A program made the translations under genes and the position numbers. From the NCBI GenBank assembly GCA_902580505.1, contig CACHLB010000001.1:117324-181323 (forward strand): a DNA stretch of 64,000 nt. Direction: 5' to 3'. Under the pieces are notes generated by a model. It was not told the origin of the DNA. It did no database searches and saw nothing but the letters and a program-made list of their open reading frames with translations. Positions 4,689-11,978 of this stretch are shown here, one piece after another. Source of the DNA: an uncultured Pelagibacteraceae bacterium. Its GTDB lineage: Bacteria; Pseudomonadota; Alphaproteobacteria; Pelagibacterales; Pelagibacteraceae. Each line of letters begins with the position of its first letter. Within the stretch, counting starts at the first letter, position 1.

Positions 4689-4724
4689 GAGGTGGCGGAG
4701 GGAGACTGAAACCACCTCGTCTCC
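4689..4724. other. GC-rich interleaved inverted repeats (possible pseudoknot or structured RNA) in a convergent intergenic region
   Basis: GAGGTGG(4689-4695)-CGGAG-GGAGAC(4701-4706)-TGAAA-CCACCTC(4712-4718)GTCTCC(4719-4724): two perfect, interleaved stems. Confidence 0.5.
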
Positions 4725-5557
4725 TAGGTCACTAAAAATCTATATAGAAATAAAGTACCGATAACATATAAAAAAACACCAAATAATCTCTGTGTTTTAA
4801 CTCTATCTAGATCTTGAACTGTTTTTGCTCCAATTCTTGCCATGAATGTTGTTATAGGAACAAATATTATAAATGCAGGTATATTAATAAACCCTATGCT
4901 TAATGGTATATCTGCTTTTAACATCATGCCAGATGTAAAAAATCCGATTGATCCAAATAAGGCTATTATAAATCCAATCGCTGCAGAACTTCCTATTGCT
5001 AAGTTAATTGGATAGCCAAAATATCTTAGTATAGGAACATTCATCATAGCTCCTGTTATGCCCATAGGAGCAGATATTAATCCTGACAAAAATCCAAATA
5101 TTATTCTAGGAAAAATATTAAATTTTTTTTTAATTTTTTTTTTCTTTTCACTTTGTAACAACAAGTAAGCTCCAAAAAAGAAAACAACGGCAGAAAAAAA
5201 GAATAATAAAGTTTTAGTATTCATCAATGCTGCCATCAATGTTCCAGAGAAAACTCCTATTATTACAAATGTTCCATAATTTTTTATAATATTAAAATCA
5301 ACAGCATTATACTTTCTATGAGTTAATACTGAAGCTGTAGCTGTTAAAATTGTTATTGAAAAAGCTGTCCCTACAGACAAATGCATTAAATAATCTTTAT
5401 CTACATTAAATGCTTCAAACACAAAAAATAAAAATGGTACAGATATCAAACCCCCACCAATTCCAAAAAATCCCGCAAAGAAACCAACCGGAACAGCGGC
5501 TGCCATCATTAAAAAAATAAAATAAATATTATTAATCTCTAAAAGAGTATTATTCAA
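4724..5557 (-). CDS. Sulfite exporter TauE/SafE family membrane protein
   Basis: Repeated FFGIGGGLI and GFLSGLISAPMGITGAM motifs; multiple TM segments. Confidence 0.85.
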   Translation of the reverse strand: MNNTLLEINNIYFIFLMMAAAVPVGFFAGFFGIGGGLISVPFLFFVFEAFNVDKDYLMHLSVGTAFSITILTATASVLTHRKYNAVDFNIIKNYGTFVIIGVFSGTLMAALMNTKTLLFFFSAVVFFFGAYLLLQSEKKKKIKKKFNIFPRIIFGFLSGLISAPMGITGAMMNVPILRYFGYPINLAIGSSAAIGFIIALFGSIGFFTSGMMLKADIPLSIGFINIPAFIIFVPITTFMARIGAKTVQDLDRVKTQRLFGVFLYVIGTLFLYRFLVT

Positions 5558-6551
5558 TTTGACCTGCCGATATACTTTGTGGATTAAATTTTACTTTATC
5601 CATTATGTGATCAATTTTCTTAACATCGGCATCTCTTACACACATATTTTCACTTAAATATCTTTTCCAAAAACTTGAACCAGTTTGGCCATGAAATAAA
5701 CCAAGAGTATGTCTCATGATTTGATTTAATCTTGTACCTTTTTTAATTTCTTCTTTTACATACTCAATTAGTTTCTCAACAACTTCTTGTCTTGTCAAAA
5801 CTTCACTATTGTTAAAAATTTTATTTTCAATATCTGCTAACATGTAAGGAGAATGATAAATAGATCTTCCAATCATAACACCATCTACATTATCTAAATG
5901 TTCTTTGATTTGATCAGTAGACGTTATGCCTCCATTAATTATTATTTCTAAATATTTAAAATCTTTTTTTAATCTATTTACATATTCATATTTCAAAGGC
6001 GGAATGTTTAAATTTTGTTTAGGCGTAAATTTTCCTAACATTGCTTTTCTGGCATGGATTATAAAAGTTTTAACACCTGTTTCTTTTAAAATATTCACAA
6101 AATTATATAAATTTTCGTATTGATCAACATTGTCATATCCAATTCTAGTTTTAACTGTTACAGGAAGTGATGTTTTTGAAATCATTTCACTTAGACAATC
6201 AGCAACAAGATTAGGTTCTTGAATTAAACAAGCCCCAAATCTATTTTTCTGAACTTTTTTACTTGGACAACCTAAATTTAAATTTATTTCATCATAACCA
6301 AATTCTTCACCTAAATATGCTGCATTTCCTAATAGTTTTGGAGAAGAACCACCAAGTTGCAAAGCAACAGGTTTTTCTCTCATATCAAATTCTAATAGTT
6401 TCTTTTTATCTCCTCTATCAATAGCTTCTGAGACAATCATTTCAGTATAGAGAAGAACGTTTTTACTAATTAGTCTTAAGAAAAATCTTTCATGTTTGTC
6501 TGTGCAGTCCATCATTGGGGCAACAGAAACAGTTCTATTTAATCTAGACAT
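5550..6551 (-). CDS. dusA: tRNA-dihydrouridine synthase A
   Basis: VAPMMDCTD, NLNLGCPSKKVQ, VKTRIGYD, NGGI motifs. Confidence 0.92.
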   Translation of the reverse strand: MSRLNRTVSVAPMMDCTDKHERFFLRLISKNVLLYTEMIVSEAIDRGDKKKLLEFDMREKPVALQLGGSSPKLLGNAAYLGEEFGYDEINLNLGCPSKKVQKNRFGACLIQEPNLVADCLSEMISKTSLPVTVKTRIGYDNVDQYENLYNFVNILKETGVKTFIIHARKAMLGKFTPKQNLNIPPLKYEYVNRLKKDFKYLEIIINGGITSTDQIKEHLDNVDGVMIGRSIYHSPYMLADIENKIFNNSEVLTRQEVVEKLIEYVKEEIKKGTRLNQIMRHTLGLFHGQTGSSFWKRYLSENMCVRDADVKKIDHIMDKVKFNPQSISAGQIE

Positions 6552-7851
6552 ATTTTTTGAGTTTGCTTGATATATTAATTTTTTTTTCGTTTACATACTC
6601 TTGATGATTTTGCTCAATTTTCCCAAGTTCATATTTGTAATTAACCATTATTCCAAATGACCTTTTAAATCCTACATCAGAAACGTTAGCATTAACTACA
6701 ATGTCATCAATTTCAGCACCATTTTTTAAGTGAAACCTACACACATCATTTATAGGAAAACCTAAATCATTTTTTTGAACAGCAAGATAATTTAAAGCAA
6801 GTTTTGTTAGTAAATCTTTATTATCTATAAATTTTCTATCTCCAATTTTAAGATCTAAAGATTTTAAAAACTCAACTTTAACAAAATTATCTTTTTGAAC
6901 TATCTCACTTATTTTCTTATTATCTGATGATTTTACCCAATCAGCAAAACCTTGCATTGGTGATAGGGTTCCAAAATTTTTTACATCAGGTAACTCTTCT
7001 TGTAACTCGTATACTACTCTTTTGATTAAGAAATTCCCGAGTGTAACTCTTGACAGTCCTTCTTGACAGTTGCTAATTGAATAAAAAGTAGCTGTATCAT
7101 AATTTTCTTTTTTTCCATCATTGGGTCTTGTCAATTCTTGAATAGATTTTGCTAAACCTTTTGTTAGTGCAATCTCAACGAAAATTATTGGCTCATCTTC
7201 TAATGCTGGATGAAAATATGCAAAAAATCTTCTGTTTTCTCCTAATCTAATTTTCAATTCATTCATATCTTTCATTGAATGAACTTTTTCGTATTTTAAT
7301 AATTTTTCTAATATTGCAGCTTTAGTATCCCAAGTTATTTTTCTTAATTTTAAAAATCCAGGATTGAACCAATTTTTAAAAATATCAATCAAATCATAAT
7401 CTAATTCTTTTAATTCAGGATTTTTTAATAAAAACATTTGTAGATCTTCTCTTAAAGAAACAATCTCAGCTGTTCCATTAGGAGCCATGTTTAATCTTAT
7501 AAACAATTCTTTTCTAATTCCCGATGTAATTCTTGATAAATTTAAAATTGATCTACTATTTTTATTTTCTGTATAATCTTTAATGGCATTGTCAATATTT
7601 GCTGTATCAGGTTTATATTTTTCATTTACTTGAAGTAAGAATTTTAATTTATCTTCATGAGATAAGTTATGATATCTAAAGAGAATATCCCTTGCTAATG
7701 TAATTCCAAATGCTGCTCCTTTAGATGATAAAAGATCATCACATAGCTCGATCAAATCTCTTTTTTTAGAGAATTTTTTTAATGATTTTTTCTCTAAAAT
7801 TTTTTGACCAGCATCAGCAATTGTCTCAAATATTCTTTTTATATTTAACAT
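6544..7851 (-). CDS. Malonyl-CoA decarboxylase
   Basis: Full-length MCD-like protein including FGTLSPMQGFADWV and NWFNPGFLKLRKITWDT. Confidence 0.9.
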   Translation of the reverse strand: MLNIKRIFETIADAGQKILEKKSLKKFSKKRDLIELCDDLLSSKGAAFGITLARDILFRYHNLSHEDKLKFLLQVNEKYKPDTANIDNAIKDYTENKNSRSILNLSRITSGIRKELFIRLNMAPNGTAEIVSLREDLQMFLLKNPELKELDYDLIDIFKNWFNPGFLKLRKITWDTKAAILEKLLKYEKVHSMKDMNELKIRLGENRRFFAYFHPALEDEPIIFVEIALTKGLAKSIQELTRPNDGKKENYDTATFYSISNCQEGLSRVTLGNFLIKRVVYELQEELPDVKNFGTLSPMQGFADWVKSSDNKKISEIVQKDNFVKVEFLKSLDLKIGDRKFIDNKDLLTKLALNYLAVQKNDLGFPINDVCRFHLKNGAEIDDIVVNANVSDVGFKRSFGIMVNYKYELGKIEQNHQEYVNEKKINISSKLKKYV

Positions 7852-7866
7852 GGTGTTTTTTATATA

Positions 7867-9198
7867 TTAAAAACCTAAACTTTTACCCATTATTTTGTCA
7901 GGTAGCCAAGTTACAATCTCAGGAAAAATACACAAAATAAGTATAGCTAAAGCCATAATTATCATAAATGGTATAGATCCCTTTAAAATTTCTGACAAAC
8001 TAACATCTGGTGTTATGCCTTTGATTATATAAAGGTTTAATCCAACAGGTGGGGTAATAAGGCCGATTTCCATATTAATTGTAAACACAATTGCAAACCA
8101 GTACGGATCAAATCCCAGTTGAGTTATAACTGGTAATAATATTGCTGAAGTCATAACAATAACAGCAACTGGTGGTAAAAAGAAACCTGCAATCAAAAGA
8201 AATATATTTATTAAAATAAATACTACCCATTTATTAGAACTCATCTCTACCATGCTTTGAGCTAATGATTGAGTTACGTAAAGTTGAGATAATGTAAATG
8301 CAAAAAGATATGAAGCTGCGATGATAAACATTATCATCACACTTTCTTTCATTGAAACTTTAACAATATTCCATATTTTTTTTGGTTGGTAAATTTTGTA
8401 AACAACAGCAATTAAGACAAAAACTAAAAAAGCTCCAACACCTGAAGCCTCAGATGGGGTAGCAACACCACCATATAAAACATATAAGACACCAGCAATG
8501 ATTGCTAAGAAAGGAAGTATCCTTGGTAGAACTTCAATTTTTTCTTTGAAAGTTGGAGGTGTTCTATTTTTTAAAGCTTTAGCTGAGTCTTTATCAATAA
8601 AGTAACTGTGTATCAGTGCCCAGATAGCGAACATACCTGCAAGCATAAATCCAGGTATCAATCCGCTTAAAAATAATCTTCCAATTGATGTTCCAGTTGC
8701 AATTCCATAAACAATTAAAACAATACTTGGAGGTATTAATACTCCTAAAGTTCCTCCTGCTGCTATGGTTCCTGTTGCAATTTGATCTGAGTATCCTCTT
8801 TTTCTCATTTCAGGAATTCCCATAGTGCCAATTGCAGCACAGGTTGCAGGACTTGATCCACTTAGTGCAGCAAAAATTGAACAAGCTCCTATATTAGAAA
8901 TAACTAGTCCTCCAGGTACTCTCCATAGCCATCTATCCAATCCTGTATATAAATCTTTTCCTGCTGGAGAATTTGCTACTGCCATTCCCATTAAAATAAA
9001 CATTGGTATTGAAAGAAGAACAAATGAATTTAAGCCTGCATAGAAAGTTTCAGCAAAAACATCTAGCATTTGAAAACCTTCGAAAGCAACTAAAAGAGCT
9101 ATTGATACAAAGCTTAAACCAAAAGCAATTGGTATTCCGGAAAATAATACTATCAAAGTAAAAACAGCAACAATTATTGCAATTATTAATGGATCCAT
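7867..9198 (-). CDS. dctM: TRAP transporter large permease (DctM family)
   Basis: Hydrophobic, about 12 TM; GIPIAFGLSF, GIATGTSIGRLFLSGLIPG, ITPPVGLNLYIIKG motifs. Confidence 0.93.
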   Translation of the reverse strand: MDPLIIAIIVAVFTLIVLFSGIPIAFGLSFVSIALLVAFEGFQMLDVFAETFYAGLNSFVLLSIPMFILMGMAVANSPAGKDLYTGLDRWLWRVPGGLVISNIGACSIFAALSGSSPATCAAIGTMGIPEMRKRGYSDQIATGTIAAGGTLGVLIPPSIVLIVYGIATGTSIGRLFLSGLIPGFMLAGMFAIWALIHSYFIDKDSAKALKNRTPPTFKEKIEVLPRILPFLAIIAGVLYVLYGGVATPSEASGVGAFLVFVLIAVVYKIYQPKKIWNIVKVSMKESVMIMFIIAASYLFAFTLSQLYVTQSLAQSMVEMSSNKWVVFILINIFLLIAGFFLPPVAVIVMTSAILLPVITQLGFDPYWFAIVFTINMEIGLITPPVGLNLYIIKGITPDVSLSEILKGSIPFMIIMALAILILCIFPEIVTWLPDKIMGKSLGF

Positions 9199-9692
9199 TA
9201 GTTAGTATCCTTTTCGTCTGAAAGCTTAATAATTTCTGCTATATATTGTAAAATCATTAATGCAGCACCTATCATCATTGAAGAATATGGAACCCACAAT
9301 GGAGGATCCCAAACCGTTCCTGTTGAGTAATTTTTAGTAAACGCTTCCTCAACCATTAAAAAACCAAAATAGAATAAAATTAAGAAGAATAATAAACTGA
9401 CTAATGAGGTAAAAATTTTAAGTCTTAATATATTTTTTTTTGATAAAAAATCGTAAATCCACTCCATGCTGACATGAGCTTTTTCACTTAAAACATATGC
9501 ACTTCCTATAAATGTTGAAGCAACTAGAAGCATTGTAACTAGCTCTGTTTGCCACGTTATTGCTCTTTGAAAAAAGTATCTCTCGAAAACTAATTCTACG
9601 ATTACAAGAATTGATAAGAGTAAAGCTAAAACAGCAAAAGCTCCACAAGCTCTTGCAACATAATCACAGAATTTTAAGTATTTTTCTTTCAT
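9198..9692 (-). CDS. dctQ: TRAP transporter small permease (DctQ family)
   Basis: 4-TM small protein between dctP and dctM; TWQTELVTMLLVASTFIGSAYVLSEKAHVSMEWI. Confidence 0.9.
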   Translation of the reverse strand: MKEKYLKFCDYVARACGAFAVLALLLSILVIVELVFERYFFQRAITWQTELVTMLLVASTFIGSAYVLSEKAHVSMEWIYDFLSKKNILRLKIFTSLVSLLFFLILFYFGFLMVEEAFTKNYSTGTVWDPPLWVPYSSMMIGAALMILQYIAEIIKLSDEKDTN

Positions 9693-9728
9693 AAAAAAAC
9701 CCCTACTTATAGAGAATAAATAGGGGTT
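9693..9728 (-). terminator. Stem-loop plus T-tract between dctP and dctQ (attenuator or partial terminator)
   Basis: AACCCCTA(9698-9705)/TAGGGGTT(9721-9728), 15-nt loop, followed on the minus strand by TTTTTTT. Confidence 0.75.
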
Positions 9729-9742
9729 CTTTATATATTATT

Positions 9743-10753
9743 TTATTTAACTGCTAAAGCCATTTCCATTAGCTTATCGCCACCTGGAACTTTTTCAGCA
9801 AAAGCTTTGTGAGATGATTTTATTGCAATATCAACCCATGCAGCGTGATCCTTAGCATCCATATACACTAATTTAACACCTGCAGCTTTATATGCTTCCT
9901 CAAACTTTTTATCTAAGTTTTCTACTTGTGCAGTCATATATTTCTCAGCAACTTTTCCAGCTTTCATTAAAGCCACTTGTTGGCTTGAATTTAAAGCATT
10001 GTAGCTTTTCTTAGACATTAAAATTGGCTCATACATAAACCATAAACCAAATTTCCCTGGAGGAGTTGCACATTTTACTTGTTCATATATTTTGTAACTC
10101 ACAAAACTTCCTGAACTAGTATTTGCACCTGTTAATACACCAGTTTGTAATCCAGTGTAAATTTCAGATGATGGCATACTTTGAATACCTGCGCCAGCAG
10201 CCTCTAACATTTGGTTGAAAGCTTTCCCTGCAGCTCTCATCACTTGTCCTTTAGCATCACTTGGATTTTTGATACATTTAGTTTTTGATGCGAAACCACC
10301 ACCTAACCATGCATCAGATAGTACTACAACACCAGCATCACTGATTATTTTTTTAATCTCAGTCATCATTGGACCTTTATTAAATCTCAATGCATGCTCA
10401 TGATTTTTTACAGTTCCTGGCATCAATGTAGCATCAAACTCTGGATGGAATTTTGATGCATAAGCTAATGGGAAAGCAGAAATATCTAATTGACCTGTAG
10501 TCATAGGTTTCCACTGTTCTTTTGGCTTATAAAGTGACTTAGCTGGATAAATTCTAATTTCTAAATCAACGTTTGCTTTTTTTACTTCATCAGCAATAAT
10601 TTGTACCATTTCATGACGTGGGTCAAAAGAGCCATCAGCTCTTGGTGTTCCTGGCCATTGGTGACTTGCTTTTAATGTAACTGCATATGCAGATCCTACT
10701 ATTGAAAAAGCTATCATTATTGAAGACAAATATAATGTTATTTTTCTTAACAT
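9743..10753 (-). CDS. dctP: TRAP transporter substrate-binding protein (DctP family)
   Basis: Signal peptide MLRKITLYLSSIMIAFSIVGSAYA; DctP-type body. The longer ORF start (10903) is rejected. Confidence 0.9.
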   Translation of the reverse strand: MLRKITLYLSSIMIAFSIVGSAYAVTLKASHQWPGTPRADGSFDPRHEMVQIIADEVKKANVDLEIRIYPAKSLYKPKEQWKPMTTGQLDISAFPLAYASKFHPEFDATLMPGTVKNHEHALRFNKGPMMTEIKKIISDAGVVVLSDAWLGGGFASKTKCIKNPSDAKGQVMRAAGKAFNQMLEAAGAGIQSMPSSEIYTGLQTGVLTGANTSSGSFVSYKIYEQVKCATPPGKFGLWFMYEPILMSKKSYNALNSSQQVALMKAGKVAEKYMTAQVENLDKKFEEAYKAAGVKLVYMDAKDHAAWVDIAIKSSHKAFAEKVPGGDKLMEMALAVK

Positions 10754-10835
10754 AGTTTTCCCCTTTTTATTTATAATGATGATATTAAATTGAACTTGAG
10801 CAGAAGAGTCAATATAAGGAAATGACGTACTTATT

Positions 10836-11978
10836 ATGGATGGTCCTTTAAAAAATTTATTAGTTGTTGATCTTACTAGGGTTTTAGTAGGTCCATATTG
10901 CACAATGATCTTATCTGATCTCGGTGCACGTGTAATTAAAGTAGAAGCACCGGAAATTGGTGACGATTCAAGAAAATTTGGACCTTTTGTAAAAGACTAT
11001 TCAGCATATTTTATGTCACTTAACAGAGGAAAAGAAAGTATTGCTCTTAATTTAAAAAATGAAGATGATAAAAAAATCTTTGATAAAATTTTAGCAAAAG
11101 CAGATATTTTAGTAGAAAATTTTAAACCAGGCACATTAGAAAAATGGGGATATGGCTGGAAAGATGTAAGCAAAAAATATCCAAAATTAATATATGCATC
11201 TGCATCTGGTTTCGGTCAAACTGGCCCTTTAAAAGAATTGCCAGCTTATGACATGGTCGTTCAGGGAATGGGTGGACTGATGAGTGTCACAGGTCATCCA
11301 AATAGTGAACCAACAAGAGTTGGAACATCTATTGGTGACATTACAGCAGGACTTTTTACTGCAATCGGAATTAATGCAGCTTTGTATGATAGACAAAAAA
11401 CAGGTAAGGGAATGTTTATAGATGTTTCAATGTTAGACTGCCAAATTGCGATTTTAGAAAATGCAATTGCAAGATATTTATCTAAAAATGAAATTCCTAA
11501 ACCAATGGGATCTAGACATCCTTCAATCGCTCCTTTTGAGGCATTTAAAACAAAAGATAGTTATATAATCATTGCTGCAGGTAACGATAAATTATATGAA
11601 AAACTTTGTGAAGTATTAGGAATACCTGAAATGGTCAGTGATAAAAGATTTAATACCAATTCACTAAGATGTGAAAATATGAATGAACTAAAATCAATTT
11701 TTGAAGATAAACTTTCTTTAAAAAATACTTCTGAATGGATAAGTGAAATGGAAAAATTAAAAATACCATGTGGACCGATATTTAATATTAAAGAAGCGGT
11801 AGAAAATCCTCAAGTCGAAGCAAGAAACATGATTGTTAAAGCTTATCATAAAGTAGTTGGTGATTTTAAATTAGCAGGCAATCCTATAAAAATGTCTTCA
11901 TACGAAGATAAAAGTACTAGAGGGGATATTCCTGATCTAGATGAACACAGGGAACAAATATTAAAAGAGTTTTCCTAA
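10836..11978 (+). CDS. Class III (CaiB/BaiF) CoA-transferase
   Basis: LVVDLTRVLVGPYCTMILSDLGARVIKVE and ASGFGQTGP motifs. Confidence 0.92.
   Translation: MDGPLKNLLVVDLTRVLVGPYCTMILSDLGARVIKVEAPEIGDDSRKFGPFVKDYSAYFMSLNRGKESIALNLKNEDDKKIFDKILAKADILVENFKPGTLEKWGYGWKDVSKKYPKLIYASASGFGQTGPLKELPAYDMVVQGMGGLMSVTGHPNSEPTRVGTSIGDITAGLFTAIGINAALYDRQKTGKGMFIDVSMLDCQIAILENAIARYLSKNEIPKPMGSRHPSIAPFEAFKTKDSYIIIAAGNDKLYEKLCEVLGIPEMVSDKRFNTNSLRCENMNELKSIFEDKLSLKNTSEWISEMEKLKIPCGPIFNIKEAVENPQVEARNMIVKAYHKVVGDFKLAGNPIKMSSYEDKSTRGDIPDLDEHREQILKEFS

Follow-up and report, generated by a model that had tools for sequence, protein, structure and literature searches.

The closest described counterparts of the locus analyzed here, a cluster of five genes in a 64,000-nucleotide stretch of DNA from an uncultured Pelagibacteraceae (SAR11) bacterium (hereafter the window; GenBank assembly GCA_902580505.1, contig CACHLB010000001.1, forward-strand positions 117,324 to 181,323), are the malonate systems of rhizobia. 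In PMC5237526, matPQMAB or matPQM of Sinorhizobium meliloti 1021 is named as a malonate system of the tripartite ATP-independent periplasmic (TRAP) type, citing Chen et al. 2010, and matRABC of Rhizobium leguminosarum bv. trifolii employs a malonyl-coenzyme A (CoA) decarboxylase (MCD) for malonate use, as we propose for the window. The latter system differs in its MatC carrier, its MatB synthetase and its regulator MatR. The S. meliloti pSymA locus has the order dctP-dctQ-dctM-MCD-MatB (P-Q-M-A-B), of which P-Q-M-A is common to the window, with identities of 54.5% for DctP, 55% for DctM and 36% for MCD. It departs from the window locus, which has neither MatB nor a GntR-type gene but carries a divergent class III CoA-transferase (CoAT), with dusA and tauE following downstream of mcd. 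Malonate decarboxylase (Mdc) offers a precedent for ligase-free activation, in that malonate is loaded onto a thiol carrier and the acetyl thioester is recycled, with the help of an acyl carrier protein specific to the system and the transferase MdcA; the window locus, to which this comparison is confined, encodes neither of them, no genome-wide search having been made.

We propose, with a probability of roughly 0.64, that the window encodes a SAR11 variant of matPQMA in which a YfdE-type class III CoA-transferase replaces MatB, such that malonate would be imported, receive CoA by transfer and be decarboxylated. The identities and order of the genes, their relationship to matPQMA, the absence of MatB and the conservation of catalytic residues are read from the sequence itself. 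The locus is best classed as a variant of the mat operon and not as a plain member, because MatB, one of its defining parts, was searched for and is missing. The host genome (30% G+C, 1.09 Mb, 36 contigs, 86.5% complete) encodes the following features in this region:

10836-11978, plus strand: class III CoA-transferase (CoAT; CaiB/BaiF, YfdE-type), 380 amino acids; PF02515, E=4.9e-124
10754-10835, no strand: CoAT/dctP divergent intergenic region, 82 base pairs (bp); probable shared promoter region
9743-10753, minus strand: dctP/matP-like TRAP solute-binding protein, 336 amino acids, with signal peptide; PF03480, E=6e-40
9198-9692, minus strand: dctQ, small permease; PF04290, E=7e-27
7867-9198, minus strand: dctM, large permease; PF06808, E=3.4e-93, and TIGR00786 above cut-off
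6544-7851, minus strand: malonyl-CoA decarboxylase (mcd, MatA), 435 amino acids; PF05292, E=1.8e-82, and MCD_N PF17408, 4.7e-19
5550-6551, minus strand: dusA, with no evident link to malonate; NF008774 above cut-off
4724-5557, minus strand: TauE/SafE-family permease (tauE); PF01925, E=4.4e-38

The genes CoAT, dctP, dctQ, dctM and mcd are all intact within positions 6544-11978. The original prediction, that dctP, dctQ, dctM and mcd run co-directionally with CoAT divergent from dctP across about 82 bp, is borne out by the Pfam assignments and the coordinates, the gap being 82 bp exactly. This length follows from the start of dctP, for which the ATG at 10753 is favored by a GGGG ribosome-binding stretch and by the signal peptide, so that dctP extends over 9743-10753 and CoAT starts at 10836; in four measured relatives the same gap is 72-97 bp. 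A scan of the 82 bp for the sigma-70 consensus gave no match. On the minus strand dctP-dctQ-dctM-mcd-dusA-tauE are separated by successive gaps of 50, -1, 15, -8 and -8 bp, and since they are so tightly packed, with mcd overlapping dusA by 8 bp, the genes from dctP through dusA and tauE likely form one transcript. At the other end, the CoAT stop codon abuts the convergent rpoZ. The MCD itself has both the MCD and MCD_N Pfam domains above cut-off, conserves the motifs YSISN, LSP and RFHL-NGA (the Ser and His residues of LSP and RFHL we take to be catalytic) and matches the PDB entry 4ksa at 296 bits.

The transporter and the missing MatB

Among NCBIfam models only those with general TRAP names score the transporter above cut-off. 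In a PDB search the nearest solved structure to DctP is 4mco/4mev (198 bits, the runner-up reaching 83 bits), which we take to be Rfer_1840 of Rhodoferax ferrireducens with bound malonate. A class-wide search recovered DctP relatives at 45-66% identity, and at ten alphaproteobacterial loci with DctPs 47-66% identical to that of the window a MatB-type gene lies no more than 5 kb away, at six of them together with MCD. These MatB-type genes were found with the MatB of locus L100, itself one of the ten, and are 53-61% identical to it; the five that were scanned score 765-832 bits against the malonyl-CoA synthase model NF005702 (cut-off 558), and the one compared with the PDB matches the MatB structures 4fuq and 4gxq. 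The DctP of L129, one more locus linked to MatB, is less similar (36%). The window DctM is likewise 55-67% identical to that of the MatB-linked operons with a close DctP. In the DctP tree, built without the S. meliloti DctP itself, the SAR11 proteins form one clade (100/100) within a larger clade, both other main branches of which hold MatB-linked members, and Rfer_1840 groups with L129. All SAR11 DctPs retain many of the polar positions that do not vary among the MatB-linked ones, including S31, H32, Q33, R47, R174, E198 and W239 (in a numbering with one extra residue ahead of the ATG), which also match the 4mco sequence. A DctP structure predicted with AlphaFold from a shallow alignment restricted to SAR11 was discarded, its predicted local distance difference test score being 47.6. 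These comparisons place the transporter close to or within the MatPQM clade, and its substrate is very likely malonate.

The window's own genome yields no MatB, its best score to NF005702 being 278 bits against a cut-off of 558 in an assembly that is 86.5% complete. In the 14 SAR11-family genomes that carry the locus or transporter, no MatB exceeds this cut-off; two of them, G158 and G435, are complete and hold CoAT-dctPQM-MCD, and there the best AMP-binding score to the model is 131 bits. MatB is present somewhere in the genome in 21 of the 24 non-SAR11 alphaproteobacteria whose DctP reaches 45% identity or more (the exceptions are G156, G113 and G409); Fisher's exact test for 21/24 versus 0/14 gives 7e-8, a value that overstates independence because SAR11 is one lineage. 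The suggestion that a CoA-transferase stands in for the synthetase in activating malonate thus finds support, short of proof, in the MatPQM affinity of the transporter and the absence of MatB, and is the leading inference.

Six AMP-binding enzymes, none of them MatB, are found in the window's own genome: an acetate--CoA ligase, an acyl-CoA synthetase (PRK08162 type), a propionate--CoA ligase-like enzyme, an oxalate--CoA ligase-family enzyme (L004), a long-chain ligase-like enzyme and an acetoacetate--CoA ligase. L004 is the basis of one alternative, namely that transporter and MCD handle malonate while another enzyme, in the window's clade L004, activates it, CoAT then serving succinate, glutarate or oxalate. 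L004 belongs to a short-dicarboxylate ligase family, scoring 448 bits against 5ie0 and 278 bits against the MatB model, and is present in eight of nine MCD-positive genus genomes and in G013. Yet G029 holds CoAT-dctPQM-MCD without it, as do G158 and G435, where no AMP-binding enzyme exceeds 131 bits to the MatB model as against 273-283 for L004-type enzymes; moreover, the L004 gene lies elsewhere, in a gamma-glutamyltranspeptidase, PanE-like and second TRAP setting, and its co-occurrence with MCD may merely reflect one subclade. We regard this alternative as unlikely. In the window's own genome (L345 2350-11338, G000:C2) the L004 gene is flanked by those of a PanE-like reductase and of a gamma-glutamyltranspeptidase, beside another TRAP system, and its occurrence among 61 relatives is confined to G013 and the MCD-positive members of the genus.

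The class III CoA-transferase

CoAT is a full-length class III enzyme (PF02515), whose nearest solved structure is Escherichia coli YfdE (4hl6, 382 bits, 45% identity), followed by human SUGCT (321 bits, about 40% identity). The YfdE family (NF008511) is also its top NCBIfam model, at 424 bits under a cut-off of 522. Cut-offs were likewise missed for succinate--glutarate CoA-transferase (NF052585, 342 bits against 750), formyl-CoA:oxalate CoA-transferase (NF003809, 279 against 442), L-carnitine CoA-transferase (NF002914, 125 against 413) and the mesaconate model. A tight grouping with formyl-CoA or carnitine enzymes, which would have spoken against a role in malonate activation, is therefore not seen, the YfdE type being the closest. 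CoAT Asp168 aligns with YfdE Asp173, and H228 of the acceptor loop GSRH (225-228) is kept; in YfdE, Asp173 and His233 are the covalent catalytic Asp and the acceptor-loop His (PMC3720670). All aligned SAR11 members have GSRH where YfdE has GNxH, the His being retained and the Asn replaced. The substrates found for YfdE are oxalate with acetyl-CoA as donor and, at lower activity, acetate or oxalate with formyl-CoA; succinate was unreactive (PMC3720670). Dicarboxylate acceptors are also known from SUGCT and the bacterial CaiB (GcdG) succinyl-CoA:glutarate CoA-transferase, class III enzymes with succinyl-CoA or acetyl-CoA as donor (PMC7645780), from which CoAT differs by its identity and its equivalog score given above.

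These affinities might suggest that the locus makes or uses oxalyl-CoA, with CoAT acting, like YfdE, as an acetyl-CoA:oxalate CoA-transferase, in keeping with YfdE being both its closest structure and its top model. The sub-threshold score and the GSRH loop speak against this, and we consider it very improbable because no oxalyl-CoA decarboxylase reaches cut-off in the nine SAR11-family genomes searched and because the MCD would be left unexplained. YfdE is not known to be linked to MCD or to a TRAP transporter.

Relatives of CoAT at 45-61% identity occur widely across the alphaproteobacteria, in diverse gene neighborhoods. Conserved neighbors in the wider family were considered as a hint to the substrate and set aside, the contexts being too varied (ALAD, penicillin amidase, ClC channel, hydrolases and aldehyde dehydrogenase). 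In five non-SAR11 genomes from two unrelated alphaproteobacterial lineages, relatives at 57-61% identity adjoin MCD. In G227, G099 and G324 the CoAT relative is co-directional with MCD and no MatB is found above cut-off; in G165 and G439 it is divergent from MCD, and MatB is present at their dctPQM locus. In the CoAT tree, the deep branches of which are poorly resolved, and in the MCD tree, both groups are separate from SAR11 and also from one another, and because the pairs occupy these different places, the CoAT-MCD pairing probably arose about three times. This repeated pairing is the best evidence that an enzyme of this type could act on malonate or malonyl-CoA, and we favor malonate as the probable substrate of CoAT, with less assurance than for the transporter.

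A search for an acceptor-loop signature of the MCD-linked enzymes found none, GARH occurring in linked and unlinked relatives alike. G415, a large alphaproteobacterial genome, has an MCD close to a class III CoA-transferase that belongs to another branch and shares 41% identity with CoAT (L247 6894-10760); this is possibly a further independent case and was not counted as support. The window's own genome has a second TRAP operon (L064 4991-9782, G000:C4:40990-45781), whose last genes encode an enoyl-CoA hydratase-family protein and another class III CoA-transferase, which shares 41% identity with the window CoAT; this is a further SAR11 pairing of a TRAP importer with a CoA-transferase.

Conservation in SAR11 and the proposed pathway

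The 80 best CoAT matches among species-representative genomes all come from Pelagibacteraceae, with identities of up to 99% over the full length. As CoAT, dctPQM and MCD occur together in 67 of these 80 loci, the arrangement is not due to chance. In twelve of the other 13 no gene is seen past dctM in that direction, as would be the case if the contig ended there, and the remaining one extends to dusA without MCD. The SAR11 MCDs form one clade that tracks the genomes, with G158 and G435 branching first and G029 next, and for this reason MCD was probably ancestral in SAR11 and later lost or moved. In G029 (L053 9209-10513) the gene lies after tauE instead of between dctM and dusA while still belonging to the SAR11 MCD clade, and seems to have moved within the operon. 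Because MCD is absent from part of the genus, including the complete genome G267, the stable core of the locus is the transporter with the CoA-transferase.

Several observations weigh against our proposal. Besides L004, which as an enzyme of the window's own clade could activate a short dicarboxylate, the loss of MatB in SAR11 is a single evolutionary event, such that 0/14 does not amount to 14 independent cases. Malonate is absent from the text of the YfdE paper (PMC3720670). Members of the wider CoAT family are frequent in alphaproteobacteria, with matches at E<=1e-85 in 197 of 385 genomes, and lie in unrelated contexts, and CoAT may for this reason be a general dicarboxylate enzyme. Of 17 resolved loci in genus relatives, MCD is kept in eight and missing in nine, in which, as in G267, dctM overlaps dusA directly; G267 has CoAT-dctPQM and no MCD anywhere in its complete genome. 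With about half of the genus keeping CoAT-dctPQM without MCD, decarboxylation is not obligatory, and in these relatives malonyl-CoA must have another use or the substrate must differ. The original prediction had malonate decarboxylated to acetyl-CoA, a step that these relatives weaken as the only fate of the CoAT product.

The same retention of the core without MCD, in which use of the substrate needs another sink or another substrate, lends something to the idea that the transporter imports a malonate analogue (methylmalonate, tartronate or another small dicarboxylate), which CoAT activates and for which MCD is a side or partial route. The MatPQM-clade DctP, which retains many polar positions that are invariant in MatB-linked DctPs, and the matPQMA gene order argue for malonate instead, and we think an analogue improbable.

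For the pathway by which malonate would be used, we infer the DctP substrate, the acceptor and donor of CoAT and the fate of malonyl-CoA as follows. DctPQM would import malonate, and CoAT would transfer CoA to it from an abundant acyl-CoA (acetyl-CoA or succinyl-CoA) through a covalent intermediate at Asp168, giving malonyl-CoA, from which MCD would release CO2 to leave acetyl-CoA. If acetyl-CoA is the donor, CoAT and MCD would form a cycle turning malonate into acetate and CO2 with acetyl-CoA regenerated, and the acetate could be reactivated by the acetate--CoA ligase present in the window's own genome. With succinyl-CoA as donor the net product would be acetyl-CoA, at a cost of one nucleoside triphosphate (via succinyl-CoA synthetase) as against two equivalents for MatB. 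In MCD-less SAR11, malonyl-CoA may enter fatty acid synthesis via FabD, which is present in the window's own genome and in G267. A bolder and more tentative extension is that malonate is activated without any dedicated ATP-dependent ligase, that YfdE-type CoAT is a malonate CoA-transferase, an activity so far unseen among class III enzymes and recruited to malonate metabolism at least three times in alphaproteobacteria, and that MCD-less SAR11 use malonate as a direct source of malonyl-CoA for fatty acids.

Few cells in the ocean are as abundant as those of SAR11. Were the proposal true, malonate would join their carbon sources, the physiological acceptors of class III CoA-transferases would increase by one, and MatB loss would be a clear case of an enzyme replaced by one of an unrelated type in a streamlined genome. 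A literature search, from which subscription papers were mostly absent so that novelty is not proven, found no account of malonate use by SAR11, no class III malonate CoA-transferase, nothing joining malonate, CoA-transferase and TRAP, and no SAR11 solute-binding screen with malonate. Since some strains have MCD and others lack it, the question of whether malonate, once imported, is oxidized or goes into lipids lends itself to testing.

Two further features of the operon vary among relatives. Across most genus relatives the dctM gene (7867-9198; L046-L062) stays at 92-100% identity, also in cases where the neighboring dusA is at 57-62% and rpoZ at 69-81%, which may reflect either unusually strong conservation or recent exchange of this one permease gene. 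The MCD-less relatives L054 and L057-L062 often have two TauE/SafE-family permease genes between dusA and pmm, as against one.

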